Shown one piece after another: positions 12,964 through 62,748 of a stretch of 64,000 bases of DNA. Each line of letters opens with the position of its first letter. Within the stretch, counting starts at the first letter, position 1. Position numbers and translations under genes: made by a program. Below the pieces are notes generated by a model. The model saw only the letters and a program-made list of their open reading frames with translations, was not told the DNA's origin and ran no database searches. The stretch spans positions 434,001 to 498,000 of the forward strand of contig NZ_AP019309.1 in assembly GCF_003925875.1 (NCBI RefSeq), written 5' to 3'. Source of the stretch: Intestinibaculum porci. Its GTDB lineage: Bacteria > Bacillota_I > Bacilli_A > Erysipelotrichales > Coprobacillaceae.

Positions 12964-12993
12964 GACCTCAATTCTTAAGAATTAGGGTCTTTT
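12964..12993 (+). terminator. Terminator after the EAL gene
   Basis: GACCTCAATTCTT pairs with AAGAATTAGGGTC (imperfect) and is followed by six Ts. The apex contains a CTTAAG (12974) that matches the half-sites described next. Confidence 0.75.
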
Positions 12994-12994
12994 T

Positions 12995-13065
12995 TATAAG
13001 AAATTCTTAAGAAATAGCACTTTTTTAATACTAATTTTTTAAGAACTTCTTAAGATAAAATTAAG
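12995..13065 (+). promoter_or_regulatory. Upstream array of 11-bp-phased TTAAG half-sites
   Basis: Half-sites begin at 12995 (TATAAG) and 13006 (CTTAAG), then at 13038 (TTTAAG), 13049 (CTTAAG) and 13060 (ATTAAG). Each group is spaced exactly 11 bp, i.e. NTTAAG-N5-NTTAAG. This is the layout bound by OmpR/PhoB-family response regulators and very close to the streptococcal CiaR consensus NTTAAG-N5-WTTAAG. It lies 80-150 bp upstream of the promoter of the secreted protein gene. No cognate two-component system is in the window. Confidence 0.6.
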
Positions 13066-13145
13066 AAATAACCCTAAAATTGCTTATGAAAATGCAAAAA
13101 AATGGCTAAAAATGCCAACATTTTATGAAAATGTGGGAAAATTGC

Positions 13146-13173
13146 TTGACGAATCAAAGATTTTGGGTACAAT
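13146..13173 (+). promoter_or_regulatory. Promoter of the secreted coiled-coil protein gene
   Basis: TTGACG (13146-13151) and TACAAT (13168-13173) are separated by 16 bp. It is flanked on both sides by TTAAG half-site arrays. Confidence 0.75.
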
Positions 13174-13181
13174 GGAGGCAT

Positions 13182-13242
13182 CTTAAGAAATACTTAAGAA
13201 ATTTGAAAGAAAAACTTAAGAGCATTGAAAGAAATGCTTAAG
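13182..13242 (+). promoter_or_regulatory. Leader array of six 11-bp-phased half-sites
   Basis: CTTAAG begins at 13182, 13193, 13215 and 13237, and the intervening 11-bp positions 13204 and 13226 both carry TGAAAG. The result is a six-register array downstream of the -10 and inside the transcribed leader. The last 44 bases amount to two copies of a 22-bp unit TTGAAAGAAAnnCTTAAGA. A protein bound here would block the promoter; alternatively it is an RNA element. Confidence 0.6.
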
Positions 13243-13265
13243 AAATAAAAAGTGAGGGTTCCATT

Positions 13266-13991
13266 ATGAAGAATTATAAACAGAAATTTTTAGTTGCCGT
13301 ATTAACAGTGATGACAATGGTTGGCGTGGCTGATGCCTCTATTGCGAAAAATCCTGCTTATGCTCAGAGCGTGGATACCAAAGCTTTAGCAAGTTCTCAA
13401 AAGTTATTAAAAGCGGTGGATGATGTCCATAAAGTGGAAACTGTGGAAGAAAAAGAAGCCGCCGCTAAAGAAGCGATGGCAAAATTAAAAGCGGCTAGAG
13501 AAGCGGCAGCGAAAAAAGCAGCTGAAGAAGCCAAAGCAGCCAAAGCAAAAGCCAAAGCTTTAGCGGCTTCTTATAAAAAGACTTATCGTCGTAATGGGAC
13601 TTCTTTCTATAAATTTGTAGCTCCAGAAACAAGCGGTAATGTGGAAGGCACATCGACATACAAAGCAGTGCAGCGCGCAGCTTCTTACCGCGGCGGTCGT
13701 TTAACGCGTTCAGCGGGGACAAAAGTTGGCCCTAACGGCAAAGAAACATATTATAACTTAAACATGGGTCGCGTTGTCTCAGTGATGAAAGCTAAAGGTT
13801 ATAAAGGCAGCTACTGGGTTCGTAGTGACGGCGTAAAGATGTTTGGTAACTATATTATTTTAGCATCTAACCACAATGTCCGTCCACGCGGCACCATCTA
13901 TGAAACATCATTAGGCTTAGGGATTGTTTGTGATACTGGTTCATTCGCAGCGGGTAACCCACGCATGACAGATATTGCCGTAGCCTGGTAA
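13266..13991 (+). CDS. Secreted Ala/Lys-rich coiled-coil protein with 3D-like C-terminal domain
   Basis: This 241-residue protein has a Sec signal peptide (MKNYKQKFLVAVLTVMTMVG..., probable cleavage after ASIA or AYA). An Ala/Lys/Glu-rich helical coiled coil follows (about 45-105), then a compact C-terminal domain (about 120-241) ending GIVCDTGSFAAGNPRMTDIAVAW. The VRPRGTIYETSLGLGIVCDTG pattern resembles the 3D (double-psi barrel) domain of cell-wall lytic enzymes, with a DTG core; this assignment is inferred. It probably acts at the wall. Its phased-operator promoter suggests control by a cell-envelope response regulator. Confidence 0.7.
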   Translation: MKNYKQKFLVAVLTVMTMVGVADASIAKNPAYAQSVDTKALASSQKLLKAVDDVHKVETVEEKEAAAKEAMAKLKAAREAAAKKAAEEAKAAKAKAKALAASYKKTYRRNGTSFYKFVAPETSGNVEGTSTYKAVQRAASYRGGRLTRSAGTKVGPNGKETYYNLNMGRVVSVMKAKGYKGSYWVRSDGVKMFGNYIILASNHNVRPRGTIYETSLGLGIVCDTGSFAAGNPRMTDIAVAW

Positions 13992-14089: not shown

Positions 14090-15439
14090 ATGGGAAAATA
14101 TTTTGGTACCGACGGCTTCCGTGGGGAAGCGAACGTCGACTTAACAGTAGAACATGCCTATAAAGTAGGCCGTTATTTAGGCTGGTATTATGGTGTCAAT
14201 AAAAACCATAAAGCCCGCATCTTAATCGGCAAGGATACCAGACGTTCAAGCTATATGTTTGAATATGCTTTAGTATCTGGCTTAACAGCTTCCGGGGCAG
14301 ATGCTTACTTATTGCATGTCACAACGACACCTTCAGTAAGCTACATTGTTCGCAGTGATGGTTTTGACTGTGGGATTATGATTTCCGCATCACATAACCC
14401 TTTTTATGATAATGGTTTAAAAGTTATTGATGGCAATGGCAAAAAACTGCAGGGGGAAGTAGAAGCTGGCATTGAACGCTATATTGATGGCTTAAGCGAT
14501 GAAATTCCTTTTGCGAAGCGCGAAGATATTGGCCGCGCTTTAGATTATTCGATGGGCCGTAACCGTTATATCGGTTACTTAATGTCGATTCCAACCAGAG
14601 CATTCAAGGATTTAAAGGTGGGCTTAGACTGTGCCAACGGCTCTTCTAGTTCCATTGCGAAAGCAGTCTTTGATGCCTTAGGGGCAAAAACCTATGTCAT
14701 TAACAATCAGCCTGATGGCACAAATATCAATACCAACTGCGGCTCTACGCATATTGAAAGCTTACAGTCATTTGTGACCAGCAATGCTTTAGATGTTGGT
14801 TTTGCCTATGATGGTGATGCCGATCGATGCATCGCGGTGGATGAATTTGGCCGCGTCGTTAATGGCGACTTAATTCTTTATGTCTGTGGCAAGGAATTAA
14901 AGAAACATGGCGAATTAAACAATAATAAGATCGTTACGACCGTAATGAGTAATATCGGTTTATACAAAGCGTTAGATGAAGCGGGCATCGGTTATGCGAA
15001 AACTCAGGTCGGTGATAAATATGTCTATGAAAACATGGTGGAAGAAGGCAATGTCATCGGCGGTGAACAGAGCGGTCATATTATCTTCTCTAAACACGCC
15101 ACTACTGGTGATGGGATTTTGACATCCTTAAAGATTGTCGAAACGATGATGGAAGAAAAACAGACCTTAGCGCAGTTAATTGAACCGGTGAAGATCTATC
15201 CACAGTTACTGATTAATGTCCGCGTGAAAGATAAGAAGGTTGTCTTAGATGATCCGGATATCAAAGCGGAAGTCGATAACGTCGAAAAAGCGTTAAAAGG
15301 TGATGGCCGCGCTTTAGTAAGAGCTTCAGGGACAGAACCAGTGATTCGTGTGATGGTGGAAGCGTCTACCGATGCATTATGTCACGAATATGTTTTGAAG
15401 GTTGTCAATAAAATCAAAGAAAAAGGTTATGCAATTTAA
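14090..15439 (+). CDS. glmM: Phosphoglucosamine mutase
   Basis: This 449-residue enzyme converts glucosamine-6-phosphate to glucosamine-1-phosphate for UDP-GlcNAc and peptidoglycan synthesis. It has the N-terminal MGKYFGTDGFRGEAN block, the phosphoserine loop ISASHNP with Ser101, the metal loop YDGDADRC near residue 243 and the phosphate-binding RASGTEPVIRV near residue 405. Full family length; start after GTGAGGAAAATAAAATT. Single gene with its own promoter and terminator. Confidence 0.96.
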   Translation: MGKYFGTDGFRGEANVDLTVEHAYKVGRYLGWYYGVNKNHKARILIGKDTRRSSYMFEYALVSGLTASGADAYLLHVTTTPSVSYIVRSDGFDCGIMISASHNPFYDNGLKVIDGNGKKLQGEVEAGIERYIDGLSDEIPFAKREDIGRALDYSMGRNRYIGYLMSIPTRAFKDLKVGLDCANGSSSSIAKAVFDALGAKTYVINNQPDGTNINTNCGSTHIESLQSFVTSNALDVGFAYDGDADRCIAVDEFGRVVNGDLILYVCGKELKKHGELNNNKIVTTVMSNIGLYKALDEAGIGYAKTQVGDKYVYENMVEEGNVIGGEQSGHIIFSKHATTGDGILTSLKIVETMMEEKQTLAQLIEPVKIYPQLLINVRVKDKKVVLDDPDIKAEVDNVEKALKGDGRALVRASGTEPVIRVMVEASTDALCHEYVLKVVNKIKEKGYAI

Positions 15440-40130: not shown

Positions 40131-41819
40131 ATGTATTACAAGGAAACTGTCAGAGTGCCTGATGAAAAAGGTAAAATTAATGTTATGAAGAAGGGTAAAA
40201 GCTGTTATGTTCGTTATCTTCTGGAGACCAGATATGTGCCTGAAAAAAAGTATGCAATTCCTAAATTTGCGATCATTGGCAAGCTGTCTGATGACCCCGG
40301 TATGATGTTCCCTAATGAAAACTATGTGAGATATTTTGGGCCTGAGGCGTTCTCTGAGGAATCACAGTCTGAAAGAAGCTGCTGCCTCAGGAGCGGCACA
40401 TTCATGGTCCTTTCTGAGCTGGCAAGAGAGCTCAATCTTAAGAAGATACTTGAAAACCGGTTTGATGACAGGGATGCTGCACTTATTCTGGATCTTGCTT
40501 TTTACTCAATCATTACGGAAGGAAATCAGTCTCAGTATTATCCGGATTATGCATATAATCATCCGTTGATGACTGAAGATATGAAGATTTACAGTGATTC
40601 TAAGATTTCAGAGTTTCTTTCATCAGTTGATTATAATCAGATTCAGGGTTTTCTTGATGACTGGAACCATGATCGTGATCATGGTGAAAGAATATATATT
40701 TCTTATGATTCAACCAATAAAAACTGTCAGGCAGGGAATATAGATATGGTTGAATTTGGACATCCTAAGGTGGACAAGGGGCTGCCGGTTGTCAATATTG
40801 CTATGGCTTATGATACAAATAATGAGATTCCGCTGTTTTATGAAGAATACCCAGGCAGTATCGTTGATGTTTCACAGTTAAGATATATGGTAGAGAAGGC
40901 ATCAGGATATGGATACAGAAACATTGGCTTTATTCTGGATCGGGGTTATTTCAGTCGCACCAATATCCATGATATGGATAAGGCAGAATATCCATTCATA
41001 ATTATGGTGAAGGGCCAAAAGAAGCTTGTCAGAGAGATTATTCTTGATTGTAAGGGAAGCTTTGAAAGTGACAGAAACAGCCTAATCAGACCATACAGAT
41101 GCTATGGAAAAACGGTAGCCAGAAAGCTCTATCCTTCAGATTCAAAGCACAGGTATTTTCATCTGTACTATTCCCATGAGAAGGCAGCAGCTGAAATGGC
41201 AGTATTCGAGGATCAGATTGAGGAAATGCAGAAATATTTGGATTCTCTGTCAGGTGAGAAGGTTACGCTATCCGAAAAGTATAGTAAATATTTTCACATC
41301 GAATATCATAAAGATGGGACGTTTGTTTGTGCGAGCGAAAAAACATCAGTAATAGAGAAAGAAATCTCTCTTTTTGGATATTACTGCATAATATCGTCTG
41401 ATCCTATGACTGCAGAAGAAGCTCTTACCATTTATAAGAGCAGAGATGCTTCTGAAAAGCTTTTTAGAGGAGATAAGTCTTATCTGGGTGGTGCTGCACT
41501 ACGGGTTCATAGCAGTAAGTCTGTGAGAACAAAACTATTCGTTGAGTTTATAGCTCTGATCATAAGAAACAGGATGCATACAAAACTGAAAAAGGAACAG
41601 AAAAACCTGAAAAAAAGGCTTAATTATATGAATGTACCAGCTGCGGTTAGGGAACTTGAGAAAATAGAACTGATGAGATGTTCTCAGGGAAACTATATTC
41701 TTGATCATGCGCCAACCAAAACGCAGAAAACAATTCTGAAGTCTTTTGACATTGATGCAAATGTTATGAAAAGACGAAATCGCAGTTTATGCGAAATTCT
41801 AGAACATGTATCGAAATAA
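40131..41819 (+). CDS. IS1634-family transposase, copy B
   Basis: This 562-residue DDE enzyme is closely similar in wording to copy A (for instance ISYDSTNKNCQAG, GFILDRGYFSR and YKSRDASEKLFRGDKSYLGG with the YREK pattern). AGAAAAGGGTGATAAT precedes the ATG. The promoter ATGATATAATACTAGTG is shared with copy A. The frame is intact and the element looks competent. Confidence 0.92.
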   Translation: MYYKETVRVPDEKGKINVMKKGKSCYVRYLLETRYVPEKKYAIPKFAIIGKLSDDPGMMFPNENYVRYFGPEAFSEESQSERSCCLRSGTFMVLSELARELNLKKILENRFDDRDAALILDLAFYSIITEGNQSQYYPDYAYNHPLMTEDMKIYSDSKISEFLSSVDYNQIQGFLDDWNHDRDHGERIYISYDSTNKNCQAGNIDMVEFGHPKVDKGLPVVNIAMAYDTNNEIPLFYEEYPGSIVDVSQLRYMVEKASGYGYRNIGFILDRGYFSRTNIHDMDKAEYPFIIMVKGQKKLVREIILDCKGSFESDRNSLIRPYRCYGKTVARKLYPSDSKHRYFHLYYSHEKAAAEMAVFEDQIEEMQKYLDSLSGEKVTLSEKYSKYFHIEYHKDGTFVCASEKTSVIEKEISLFGYYCIISSDPMTAEEALTIYKSRDASEKLFRGDKSYLGGAALRVHSSKSVRTKLFVEFIALIIRNRMHTKLKKEQKNLKKRLNYMNVPAAVRELEKIELMRCSQGNYILDHAPTKTQKTILKSFDIDANVMKRRNRSLCEILEHVSK

Positions 41820-43047: not shown

Positions 43048-44472
43048 ATGAACGACCCATTAAAACACAAACTATTTACAATCTATGGGCAAATTCTTCA
43101 TAAGAAAGTGCTCATGGATGCCTGGAAGAGCGTCAAAGCTAATAAGGGCTGTGCAGGCATTGATAAAATGTCGATCAAGAAGTTCTCGGAACATGAGGAT
43201 GAGTATATTGATGAACTCTTAATTGAGCTCAAAAATAAGACTTATAAGCCTTCGCCGGTGAAACGCGTTTATATCAAGAAGAAAAACGGCAAACTCAGAC
43301 CGCTTGGTATACCAACTATCAAAGATAGAATAGTACAGCAGGCCATTGTTATGAGAGTGCAGGGATTCTTTGAGAAGAATGTGTTCCACCAAAATTCATG
43401 CGGGTTCAGACCTGGCATGGGTACGCAAGATGCTATTTACAAAGTAGCCAATAGGCTGAATAAAGGTTTCAAATATATTTATGACTTTGACATCAAAGGG
43501 TTCTTTGACAACATCCCTCATAAGAAATTAATGAAGGTGTTAAATAAGTACATTGCAGATGGAACAGTCCTGGATATCATTTGGAAAAGTCTCAAAGCTG
43601 GGTACATGGAAGATCGCATCAAGTATGAGACTTCAAAAGGTACTGTGCAGGGTGGTGTCATTTCACCGCTATGTGCAAATATTTATCTCAATGAATTGGA
43701 TTGGGAACTGCATAAAGCTGAAATAGAGTCAGTGCGTTATGCCGATGATTCTCTGGCTTTATGTAGAACAAAGGAAGATCTTGAGCGAGCGATACAGGTG
43801 GTACATAGAGTCCTGGATGAGCTTGGTTTAGAACTAGCAGAGGAAAAGACTTATGTTATTGACTTTGACAAGGATGACTTTGATTATCTTGGGTTTACGT
43901 TTGGTCACTGGAGACTAAATAAAAACGGTGAAAGGTATTTCACCTACTCACCTAGTAAAAGTTCTATTAAGAAGTTTAAATCGGACATCAAGGCTAAAAC
44001 ATGTAAAACCTTCTCTCATTCCTTTGAAGAATGGGTCAGCATACTTAATCCGATTCTAAGAGGAAAATTCAATTATCTTCTTATCCCTCATAAAATTCTG
44101 AGAGACTGCAGGGTCTTTGCGGCCAAGGCTGGCAAGGTTTTCCGTGGAAAAGCAATCTTCAAACCAAATTCGTTAGACGGATATGTCAGAGGGCGCTTAA
44201 GAGTTAACTTTGCAAACAGAGGCAAGAAGTCAGCTAAAATCAAAGATGGATTTATGCTCCACGTTAAGTATGGAATAGATTTCTTTGTCTCAACCATAGG
44301 GCTATTCACAGGCGGCCTTGAATTATATTCCTGGTGTCATAAAGACATTACACCTGAAGAATATGTCTCTATCCTCAGAGAGCGCAGGTCTAAATCAAAA
44401 TCCAATTCTCAATTAACCTCTGTGCAATGGGCAAAAAGAAGGGAATTTTGGAACAATGCTTATGCTAAATAG
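43048..44472 (+). CDS. ltrA: Group II intron reverse transcriptase/maturase
   Basis: The 474 residues have RT domains in order: NKGCAGIDKMSIKKF (RT0-1), KLRPLGIPTIKDRIVQQAI (RT2), SCGFRPGMGTQDAI (RT3), YDFDIKGFFDNIPH (RT3-4), GTVQGGVISPLCANIYL (RT4) and YADDSLALC (RT5 catalytic YADD). A maturase/domain X region follows (about 300-420). No HNH endonuclease domain is seen, so retrohoming would use nascent DNA primers. It helps the intron splice and copy itself. AAAGGAGATATGCAAATAAA precedes the ATG. Confidence 0.93.
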   Translation: MNDPLKHKLFTIYGQILHKKVLMDAWKSVKANKGCAGIDKMSIKKFSEHEDEYIDELLIELKNKTYKPSPVKRVYIKKKNGKLRPLGIPTIKDRIVQQAIVMRVQGFFEKNVFHQNSCGFRPGMGTQDAIYKVANRLNKGFKYIYDFDIKGFFDNIPHKKLMKVLNKYIADGTVLDIIWKSLKAGYMEDRIKYETSKGTVQGGVISPLCANIYLNELDWELHKAEIESVRYADDSLALCRTKEDLERAIQVVHRVLDELGLELAEEKTYVIDFDKDDFDYLGFTFGHWRLNKNGERYFTYSPSKSSIKKFKSDIKAKTCKTFSHSFEEWVSILNPILRGKFNYLLIPHKILRDCRVFAAKAGKVFRGKAIFKPNSLDGYVRGRLRVNFANRGKKSAKIKDGFMLHVKYGIDFFVSTIGLFTGGLELYSWCHKDITPEEYVSILRERRSKSKSNSQLTSVQWAKRREFWNNAYAK

Positions 44473-61326: not shown

Positions 61327-62748
61327 TTACTCTTCTGGGTCATTTCCAGTAAAGGTAAAATCATGTACTACACCATTCTCATCAGAATATTTGTAAATAC
61401 ATCTTCTTGTCTTTTCTGGAATGTCAGTAGTAATACTTTGGAAGAACGTGGCTCGGGTATCTTCCGGAAGCTTCATGAGATCCTCATAAAGCAGTACGAA
61501 ATCACTATCATGCTTAAGAATAGCGTAAATATAACGTGCCATCTTATTGGCAACAGCTACTGTTGCAAGCTTATGGCGCTTCTTATTGCCATTTTTAACC
61601 CTTGCAAAAAGGTTGGCAAGGTATGGATTATGCCGTCTGGCATACTCTGATGCCAGGTATATAGCGTGTCTGAGGATAGGCGATCCCATTTTGGAAATCT
61701 TCCCATGGGTATCAACTGATGAACCTGATTTCTTATTTCTTGGCGTTAATCCACAGTATGATGCAAAGTTTTCCGCTTTCTTGGAAAGAGCTATGTCATA
61801 TACCTCACCAAGAATCATAGCTGCGGATTCTTCACCAACACCGATTAATGTCTGAAGACGCTTAAATGCAGGCTGTTCTGAAGCAAGATTAACCATCATT
61901 TTCTTGTAGTTTCTCCTTGTCTGAAGCAGATTTCTGATACTGCTGACCATTTCAACGGTGATCAGTTCAGCTTCCTGAGGAACATTAAGAGTAACAATGG
62001 TATTTTCACAAAGATCGAACAAATCGTCTATTTTAGCTTCCTTACAGCGATGCTTAGAGGCCTCGTAAGCCACATTAAAGACTTCATTTTTAGAAGATTT
62101 AATGATATGATGTGCAGTAGGATATGCCTCTAAGATTGCAAGCGCAGTCGCAGAACGTATTGAGAAAACAGCGGTAAGCTCCGGGAAGAACTTTTCACAC
62201 TGTGCACTCAGTCGATTGTATTCAGCATTTAGCTGTTTATTCAGCTGCTGATAGCGATGCGTCAGAATTTTTAGATTCGCATGTCCTTTTTTGTTGTTTT
62301 CTTCGTTGTAATTAGGAGCTTTTTCAACATAACGTGCATCATCATCAGTTGCGCACATCTGTGCAATAGTCTTAGCGTCAAGTGGATCGGATTTGGCATA
62401 TCCGTGTGCATCGCGCCACCTGTCAACGAATTTAGTATCCAGAAACTTAACTGCTTCACTTTCCTGGAGATGATCGCGTATATACATATAGACATTGTCA
62501 GAGTACACGCCTGTTACTTCCATTGTGAAAAGAACGCTCAGGCAGTCTTCATCTTTGTAATGTCTAACGGTATCGAGGAACTCATCGACACCTGGCTTGG
62601 TGAATTTAAACTTTATCGCCTTTCGAACAAATTTGGATTTAACATTTCTATCTCTGTTACGTTTATAAATGGCAGCATCTGCTTTGCCTTTAGAAACGTC
62701 TAAACCGATAAATAAATCATATTGTTTTGAAAAGATATTGTTTTTCAC
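61327..62748 (-). CDS. IS110-family transposase (DEDD, bridge-RNA type)
   Basis: This 473-residue protein has a RuvC-like DEDD domain: GLDVSKGKAD near 16, TMEVTG near 75 and KSDPLDAKTIAQ near 118. A coiled-coil middle follows, then a C-terminal Tnp20 domain (LQTLIGVGEESAAMILGE and YCGLTPRNKKSGSSVDTHG...GSPILRHAIY) that carries the catalytic serine. GTG start (62748) follows GAGGTACTTATC. The frame is intact. It moves as a circle and selects targets through an RNA guide in characterised relatives. Confidence 0.92.
   Translation of the reverse strand: MKNNIFSKQYDLFIGLDVSKGKADAAIYKRNRDRNVKSKFVRKAIKFKFTKPGVDEFLDTVRHYKDEDCLSVLFTMEVTGVYSDNVYMYIRDHLQESEAVKFLDTKFVDRWRDAHGYAKSDPLDAKTIAQMCATDDDARYVEKAPNYNEENNKKGHANLKILTHRYQQLNKQLNAEYNRLSAQCEKFFPELTAVFSIRSATALAILEAYPTAHHIIKSSKNEVFNVAYEASKHRCKEAKIDDLFDLCENTIVTLNVPQEAELITVEMVSSIRNLLQTRRNYKKMMVNLASEQPAFKRLQTLIGVGEESAAMILGEVYDIALSKKAENFASYCGLTPRNKKSGSSVDTHGKISKMGSPILRHAIYLASEYARRHNPYLANLFARVKNGNKKRHKLATVAVANKMARYIYAILKHDSDFVLLYEDLMKLPEDTRATFFQSITTDIPEKTRRCIYKYSDENGVVHDFTFTGNDPEE

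Follow-up and report, generated by a model that had tools for sequence, protein, structure and literature searches.

What reads the TTAAG repeats that recur every 11 bp around the promoter of a secreted wall protein gene in Intestinibaculum porci, and what might they do there? The locus lies in a stretch of 64,000 nucleotides (hereinafter the window), G000:C1:434001-498000, of the 3.21-Mb genome of this bacterium (G000). Its relevant features, in window coordinates, are as follows:

12964..12995, + strand: intrinsic terminator of the upstream GGDEF/EAL gene, GACCT..AATTCTTAAGAATT..GGGTC followed by T6 (from the sequence and the Pfam assignment of the upstream gene)
12995..13011, + strand: outermost register pair, a degenerate TATAAG (12995) and an exact CTTAAG (13006), 11 bp apart (from the sequence)
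13038..13065, + strand: distal upstream array, TTTAAG/CTTAAG/ATTAAG, in three exact 11-bp registers (from the sequence)
13146..13173, + strand: predicted sigma-A promoter, TTGACG-N16-TACAAT, with the start expected near 13180 (predicted from the sequence)
13182..13247, + strand: leader array of six 11-bp registers, CTTAAGAAATA/CTTAAGAAATT/TGAAAGAAAAA/CTTAAGAGCAT/TGAAAGAAATG/CTTAAGAAATA (from the sequence; layout conserved in G026)
13254..13258, + strand: RBS GAGGG, directly 3′ of the leader array (from the sequence)
13266..13991, + strand: gene for a secreted wall protein of 241 aa with a signal peptide, an Ala/Lys-rich coil and a divergent C-terminal 3D-type domain related to YuiC (from the ORF and a profile match)

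A pattern search recovers exact TTAAG words starting at 13007, 13039, 13050, 13061, 13183, 13194, 13216 and 13238. The original prediction, made from the sequence alone, had placed NTTAAG half-sites at 13006, 13038, 13049, 13060, 13182, 13193, 13215 and 13237, all of which are present, and at 12995, which instead reads TATAAG and overlaps the T-tract of the GGDEF/EAL terminator. A further TTAAG at 12975 is part of the stem of that terminator. The two registers assigned to TGAAAG (13204 and 13226) are indeed occupied by it, and all six leader registers between 13182 and 13247 are filled at 11-bp intervals. The claimed one-turn spacing is exact inside the clusters at 13038-13065 and 13182-13247 but fails between clusters, which are out of register with each other (32 bp from 13006 to 13038 and 122 bp from 13060 to 13182). 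The phased TTAAG repeats around this promoter are not a product of chance: the 307-bp region holds nine TTAAG words and three pairs at 11 bp, none of 20,000 dinucleotide shuffles of it matched any of these counts, and when the same nine words were placed at random, three pairs were reached in 170 of 200,000 trials.

Given the predicted promoter, the leader array would begin at about +2 and end just 5′ of the GAGGG RBS, while the distal array sits at about −142 to −115 relative to the expected start and is the sole exact three-register match among the matches listed for this genome. The promoter itself is near-consensus, with no box abutting its −35. Two copies of TTATGAAAATG, at a distance of 40 bp, lie in the interval from the distal array to the promoter (13084-13134); the sequence is unlike every box type. 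An Rfam search of the window leader matched no family. As the array occupies the leader up to the RBS, the repeats might be held to act as RNA, in the form of a structured or protein-bound leader, and a GCAUU..AAUGC hairpin does form around the fifth register in the folded leader, with CTTAAGAAT..ATTCTTAAG at the same place in G026. We regard this as highly improbable: the folding of the leader is unexceptional (z −1.66), and the same arrays are also found 5′ of promoters and, at NlpC/P60 genes, in the reverse orientation. Moreover, G030 and G031 have orthologues of the window gene whose array lies upstream of the promoter, with one CTTAAG between the −35 and −10; this argues for DNA rather than RNA as the working form of the repeats. 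In G026, which belongs to another genus, the orthologue has an eight-register leader array, and leader arrays, of 4-8 registers, recur in G000, G001 and G026 at genes of the 3D type and at lysozyme genes, the latter being those at 406928 and 2543942 of I. porci and one each in G001 and G026.

That the array precedes the gene of a secreted wall protein, as had been proposed, agrees with the signal peptide and the YuiC-related 3D-type domain of the 241-aa product. While a Pfam search with its C-terminal domain gave no match, a nine-sequence profile of this domain matches YuiC (E 0.0018) over the Asp-containing core. The match likens the domain, very divergent as it is, to YuiC, a 3D-domain lytic transglycosylase of Bacillus, and the window protein is probably a divergent lytic transglycosylase. 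Its AlphaFold model, computed for the protein by itself, has a pLDDT of 42 and was left out of account. In G030 and G031, the Ig protein ends in the same 3D-type domain instead of NlpC/P60.

Genome-wide counts were obtained by pattern searches and from fetched stretches of the I. porci genome. TTAAG-N6-TTAAG occurs 41 times as against 11 for a reversed-pattern control, and the mean for spacings other than 11 is 16 (P about 1e-7 for the excess at spacing 11). Summed across spacings 5-33, TTAAG pairs show no enrichment (492 vs 538); therefore, it is spacing 11 that is special. These counts speak against the motif being equally common elsewhere in the genome, and the original prediction survives them. 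Several TTAAG-pair sites inside or beside unrelated genes are probably due to chance. The surroundings distinguish two kinds of sites, namely Pho-type TTAAC repeats, found at phosphate genes, and TTAAG arrays, most of which lie 5′ of genes for secreted peptidoglycan hydrolases and a CtpB-like protease. The array genes code for an Ig-like + NlpC/P60 protein, two other NlpC/P60 proteins, four Phage_lysozyme2 proteins and the CtpB-like S41 protease, which has a peptidoglycan-binding domain; genes for an Amidase_3, a DUF5722 and an LCP-like protein are less certain members. The half-site consensus is NTTAAGAAWT, with TGAAAG, TGTAAG and CGTAAG as weaker registers, and because these recur as alternative registers, the TGAAAG "fillers" of the window are genuine members of its array. 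An array may adjoin the −35, in either orientation, may occupy the leader from the −10 to the RBS, or may do both; the boxes just upstream of the −35 at many other regulon promoters suggest activation. A TTAAG pair also lies 5′ of an alpha/beta-hydrolase (lipase-like) gene (C1:1328483 of I. porci and L176 of G001) and is kept in both species of the genus.

Pho boxes and TTAAG boxes thus occur side by side in this genome, and Pho-type TTAAC 11-bp direct repeats, present at phoU-phoP and a Na/Pi transporter gene, read GTTAAG-N5-GTTAAG on the opposite strand. Hence, the sites might be Pho boxes of L114, the PhoP/PhoB orthologue. The Pho boxes of PhoP/PhoB, with their 11-bp tandem TTAAC half-sites, are similar in layout to the TTAAG boxes but differ from them in the last base, the genes served and the regulator. 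Moreover, the Pho-type repeats face phosphate genes with TTAAC in the sense of the gene, and PhoP is also present, with nearly the same helix, in genomes of the family that lack the TTAAG box. Accordingly, we consider it extremely unlikely that the TTAAG sites are Pho boxes of L114.

Across genomes, boxes were counted as CTTAAG-N5-CTTAAG because the broader TTAAGA-N5-TTAAGA also takes in Pho boxes. The Ig-NlpC/P60 gene is present in 41 of 43 family genomes, and in 12 genera (g1, g2, g4, g6, g7, g8, g11, g15, g16, g17, g18 and g19) this box lies 7-8 bp 5′ of its weak −35 (GTGGACT/TAGACA); the Ig-NlpC promoter of I. porci is at C1:1511204-1511220. It was looked for and is missing at the Ig-NlpC/P60 promoters of g9, g12, g13, g20 and g3, while that of g10 has a displaced pair only. 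A literature search found no account of such a regulon in the bacterial group of I. porci. As the repeats recur beside genes for secreted wall-cutting enzymes across this group of gut bacteria, they are most likely docking sites for one response regulator, which would set the time at which these bacteria cut their own wall, and the presence of head-to-tail half-sites at 11 bp agrees with the earlier suggestion of an OmpR-type regulator.

The OmpR-type regulators of I. porci were compared with those fetched from nine other genomes, a comparison confined to the OmpR family and covering response regulators exclusive to the other genomes in part only. It points to one candidate:

C1:160240-160941 of I. 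porci: L115, VanR-like response regulator, adjoining a VanS-like kinase (from co-occurrence with the box)

Among the I. porci OmpR-type regulators compared, L115 alone is present in every box-bearing and absent from every box-lacking genome tested (nine genomes). This split yielded a prediction for the remaining family, which was borne out: CTTAAG-N5-CTTAAG occurs in 23/23 genomes with an L115 orthologue (66-91% identity, 324 bits or more) as against 1/20 of those without, where the best L115 match reaches 235 bits (about 50% identity; Fisher 2.5e-11 for whole-genome occurrence, kinship ignored). The one box in an L115-less genome lies between two non-wall genes. The L115 orthologues share a strongly conserved recognition helix, [IV]MVHIRKLREK. 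The box-bearing and box-lacking genomes are separated by one split in the trees of conserved regulators (support 81-100), so the co-occurrence may reflect one evolutionary event, and any gene gained or lost alongside would fit it as well. The promoter of L115 has no TTAAG array; hence, autoregulation does not come to its support. Taken by its co-occurrence, L115 is the likely regulator of the TTAAG boxes, a well-supported prediction short of proof. Genus g2 (G002 and G003; L148 and L159) has another VanR-like regulator gene, whose −10 is immediately preceded by CTTAATAAATTCTTAA; the gene may be a further target of this system.

The operators could also be read by L119 (C1:1068703-1069365), the widely conserved WalR/MtrA-like regulator that is the counterpart of WalR in this family. 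WalR likewise recognizes direct repeats of 11 bp and controls wall hydrolases (PMC9210968). An L119 orthologue is found in every genome whose L119 locus was fetched, save G009, and WalK is the best-scoring model for its kinase; yet we deem this reading unlikely, in that box-lacking genomes retain L119 (71-77% identity, helix nearly unchanged) but have no boxes, even where the target gene is the same. More generally, the recognition helices of L114 (PhoP), L118 and L119 are nearly the same in box-bearing and box-lacking genomes with no systematic difference; thus, a specificity change in these regulators is unlikely to explain the loss of the box.

A more local proposal assigns the window-gene array to an L121-type regulator (C1:2235051-2235725), acting alone or with L115. 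The neighbors of L121 are an L,D-transpeptidase and wall proteins; each of the five genomes with a 3D-type protein has a regulator of the L121 type or a paralogue, and in G030 and G031 this regulator is about 3 kb from the 3D-type gene. However, clear orthologues (77-83%) are confined to G001 and G026 while the box is found in 13 genera, and this assignment is accordingly improbable. Indeed, L121 had been our first choice for the regulon, on account of its wall-gene neighborhood and the paralogue near the 3D-type gene in G030/G031, and was dropped as its orthologues are too narrowly distributed. L116, whose own leader carries TTTAG/TTTAAG registers, was discarded as it is missing from the box-bearing G012 and present in box-lacking genomes. 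In several genera, a gene that probably encodes a small alarmone synthetase adjoins an L121-like regulator-kinase pair (L132, C1:870000-880000 of I. porci; L124; L125).

With L115 as the best candidate, the regulon can be set against known systems. The published CiaR box of streptococci, TTTAAG-N5-TTTAAG (PMC8186281), is identical in half-site and spacing to the window repeats, as the original prediction had held; its CiaR-like regulator, in contrast, is not upheld, the response regulator whose distribution follows that of the boxes being VanR-like. No CiaR model is among the NCBIfam matches of the I. porci regulators, L115 scoring best on VanR. Published CiaR sites are single direct repeats, whereas up to eight registers are found here, the leader included, and the strongest promoters of the CiaR regulon drive small RNAs, whereas the sites here front wall-hydrolase genes rather than a CiaR-type set led by small-RNA genes. 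Hence, despite the agreement in the box, we do not file it as CiaR, the regulon being of another type. The WalRK (YycFG) system of Bacillota shares the 11-bp direct repeats, an OmpR-family regulator and a regulon dominated by peptidoglycan hydrolases. However, the WalR box is TGTWAH-N5-TGTWAH (PMC9210968) as against the consensus NTTAAG here, where TGTAAG is a minority register only, and all I. porci regulators fall short of the NCBIfam WalR/YycF cut-off (340 bits; best score 196 bits); for both reasons we do not file it as WalR. Finally, although the best-scoring models are VanR for L115 (283.8 bits) and VanS for its kinase (268 bits), both scores are below the respective cut-offs (350 for NF033117 and 400), for which reason L115 is not filed as VanR; its neighbors are a nudix-type gene, ispF and pyrG, with no adjacent van genes. 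Stated conservatively, the regulon is new, its leader operator of several registers is unusual, and the best candidate for its regulator is VanR-like. By analogy, the TTAAG boxes can be taken to work like the operators of the WalR or CiaR regulons at wall-enzyme promoters.

Thus, we posit that the repeats are probably operators of an OmpR/PhoB-family regulator, with L115 as the best candidate, which would act over the family's peptidoglycan-hydrolase regulon. The sites, their enrichment and conserved layout, the content of the regulon and the co-occurrence are results of computation, whereas binding, the identity of the regulator and the sign of control are inferred. Regulator dimers would occupy adjacent half-sites on a single face of the DNA, and activation would be the probable outcome at weak −35 elements with an abutting pair. 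At the window gene, regulator bound to the six registers between about +2 and the RBS would most likely block promoter escape or elongation, a plausible effect in view of its position, making the leader array a repressing, cooperative and dose-dependent brake; looping, the other mode named in the original prediction, may or may not occur. A bolder version, which we advance tentatively and consider doubtful, is that a VanR-like two-component system took over a WalRK-like master role, with the flanking arrays turning each hydrolase promoter into a dose-reading device. A few phosphorylated dimers would then fill the upstream pair and activate, while many would polymerize along the leader array of 4-8 registers and turn transcription off. 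If true, such dose reading would create a self-limiting window of wall-cutting activity.

The control of wall-cutting enzymes is essential, a possible drug target, and has been worked out mainly for WalRK. In this group of gut bacteria the hydrolase regulon is intact, its box is another one and none of the regulators exceeds the WalR cut-off; the one regulator-kinase pair predicted from co-occurrence amounts to a prediction that is concrete and can be tested. Leader arrays of several registers are, in addition, an unusual promoter architecture.

Elsewhere in the window, a glycine riboswitch (Rfam RF00504) is found at 164-255, and elements that by appearance are mobile include a transposase (40131-41819), a group II intron-type reverse transcriptase (43048-44472) and an IS110-type transposase (61327-62748). 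A gene for a glmM-like phosphoglucosamine mutase is present in two copies, one in the window (14090-15439) and the other at about 772-774 kb of C1 (L118:1-984), directly upstream of the two-component system L118; the copies are 96.5% identical across the 984 bases compared.
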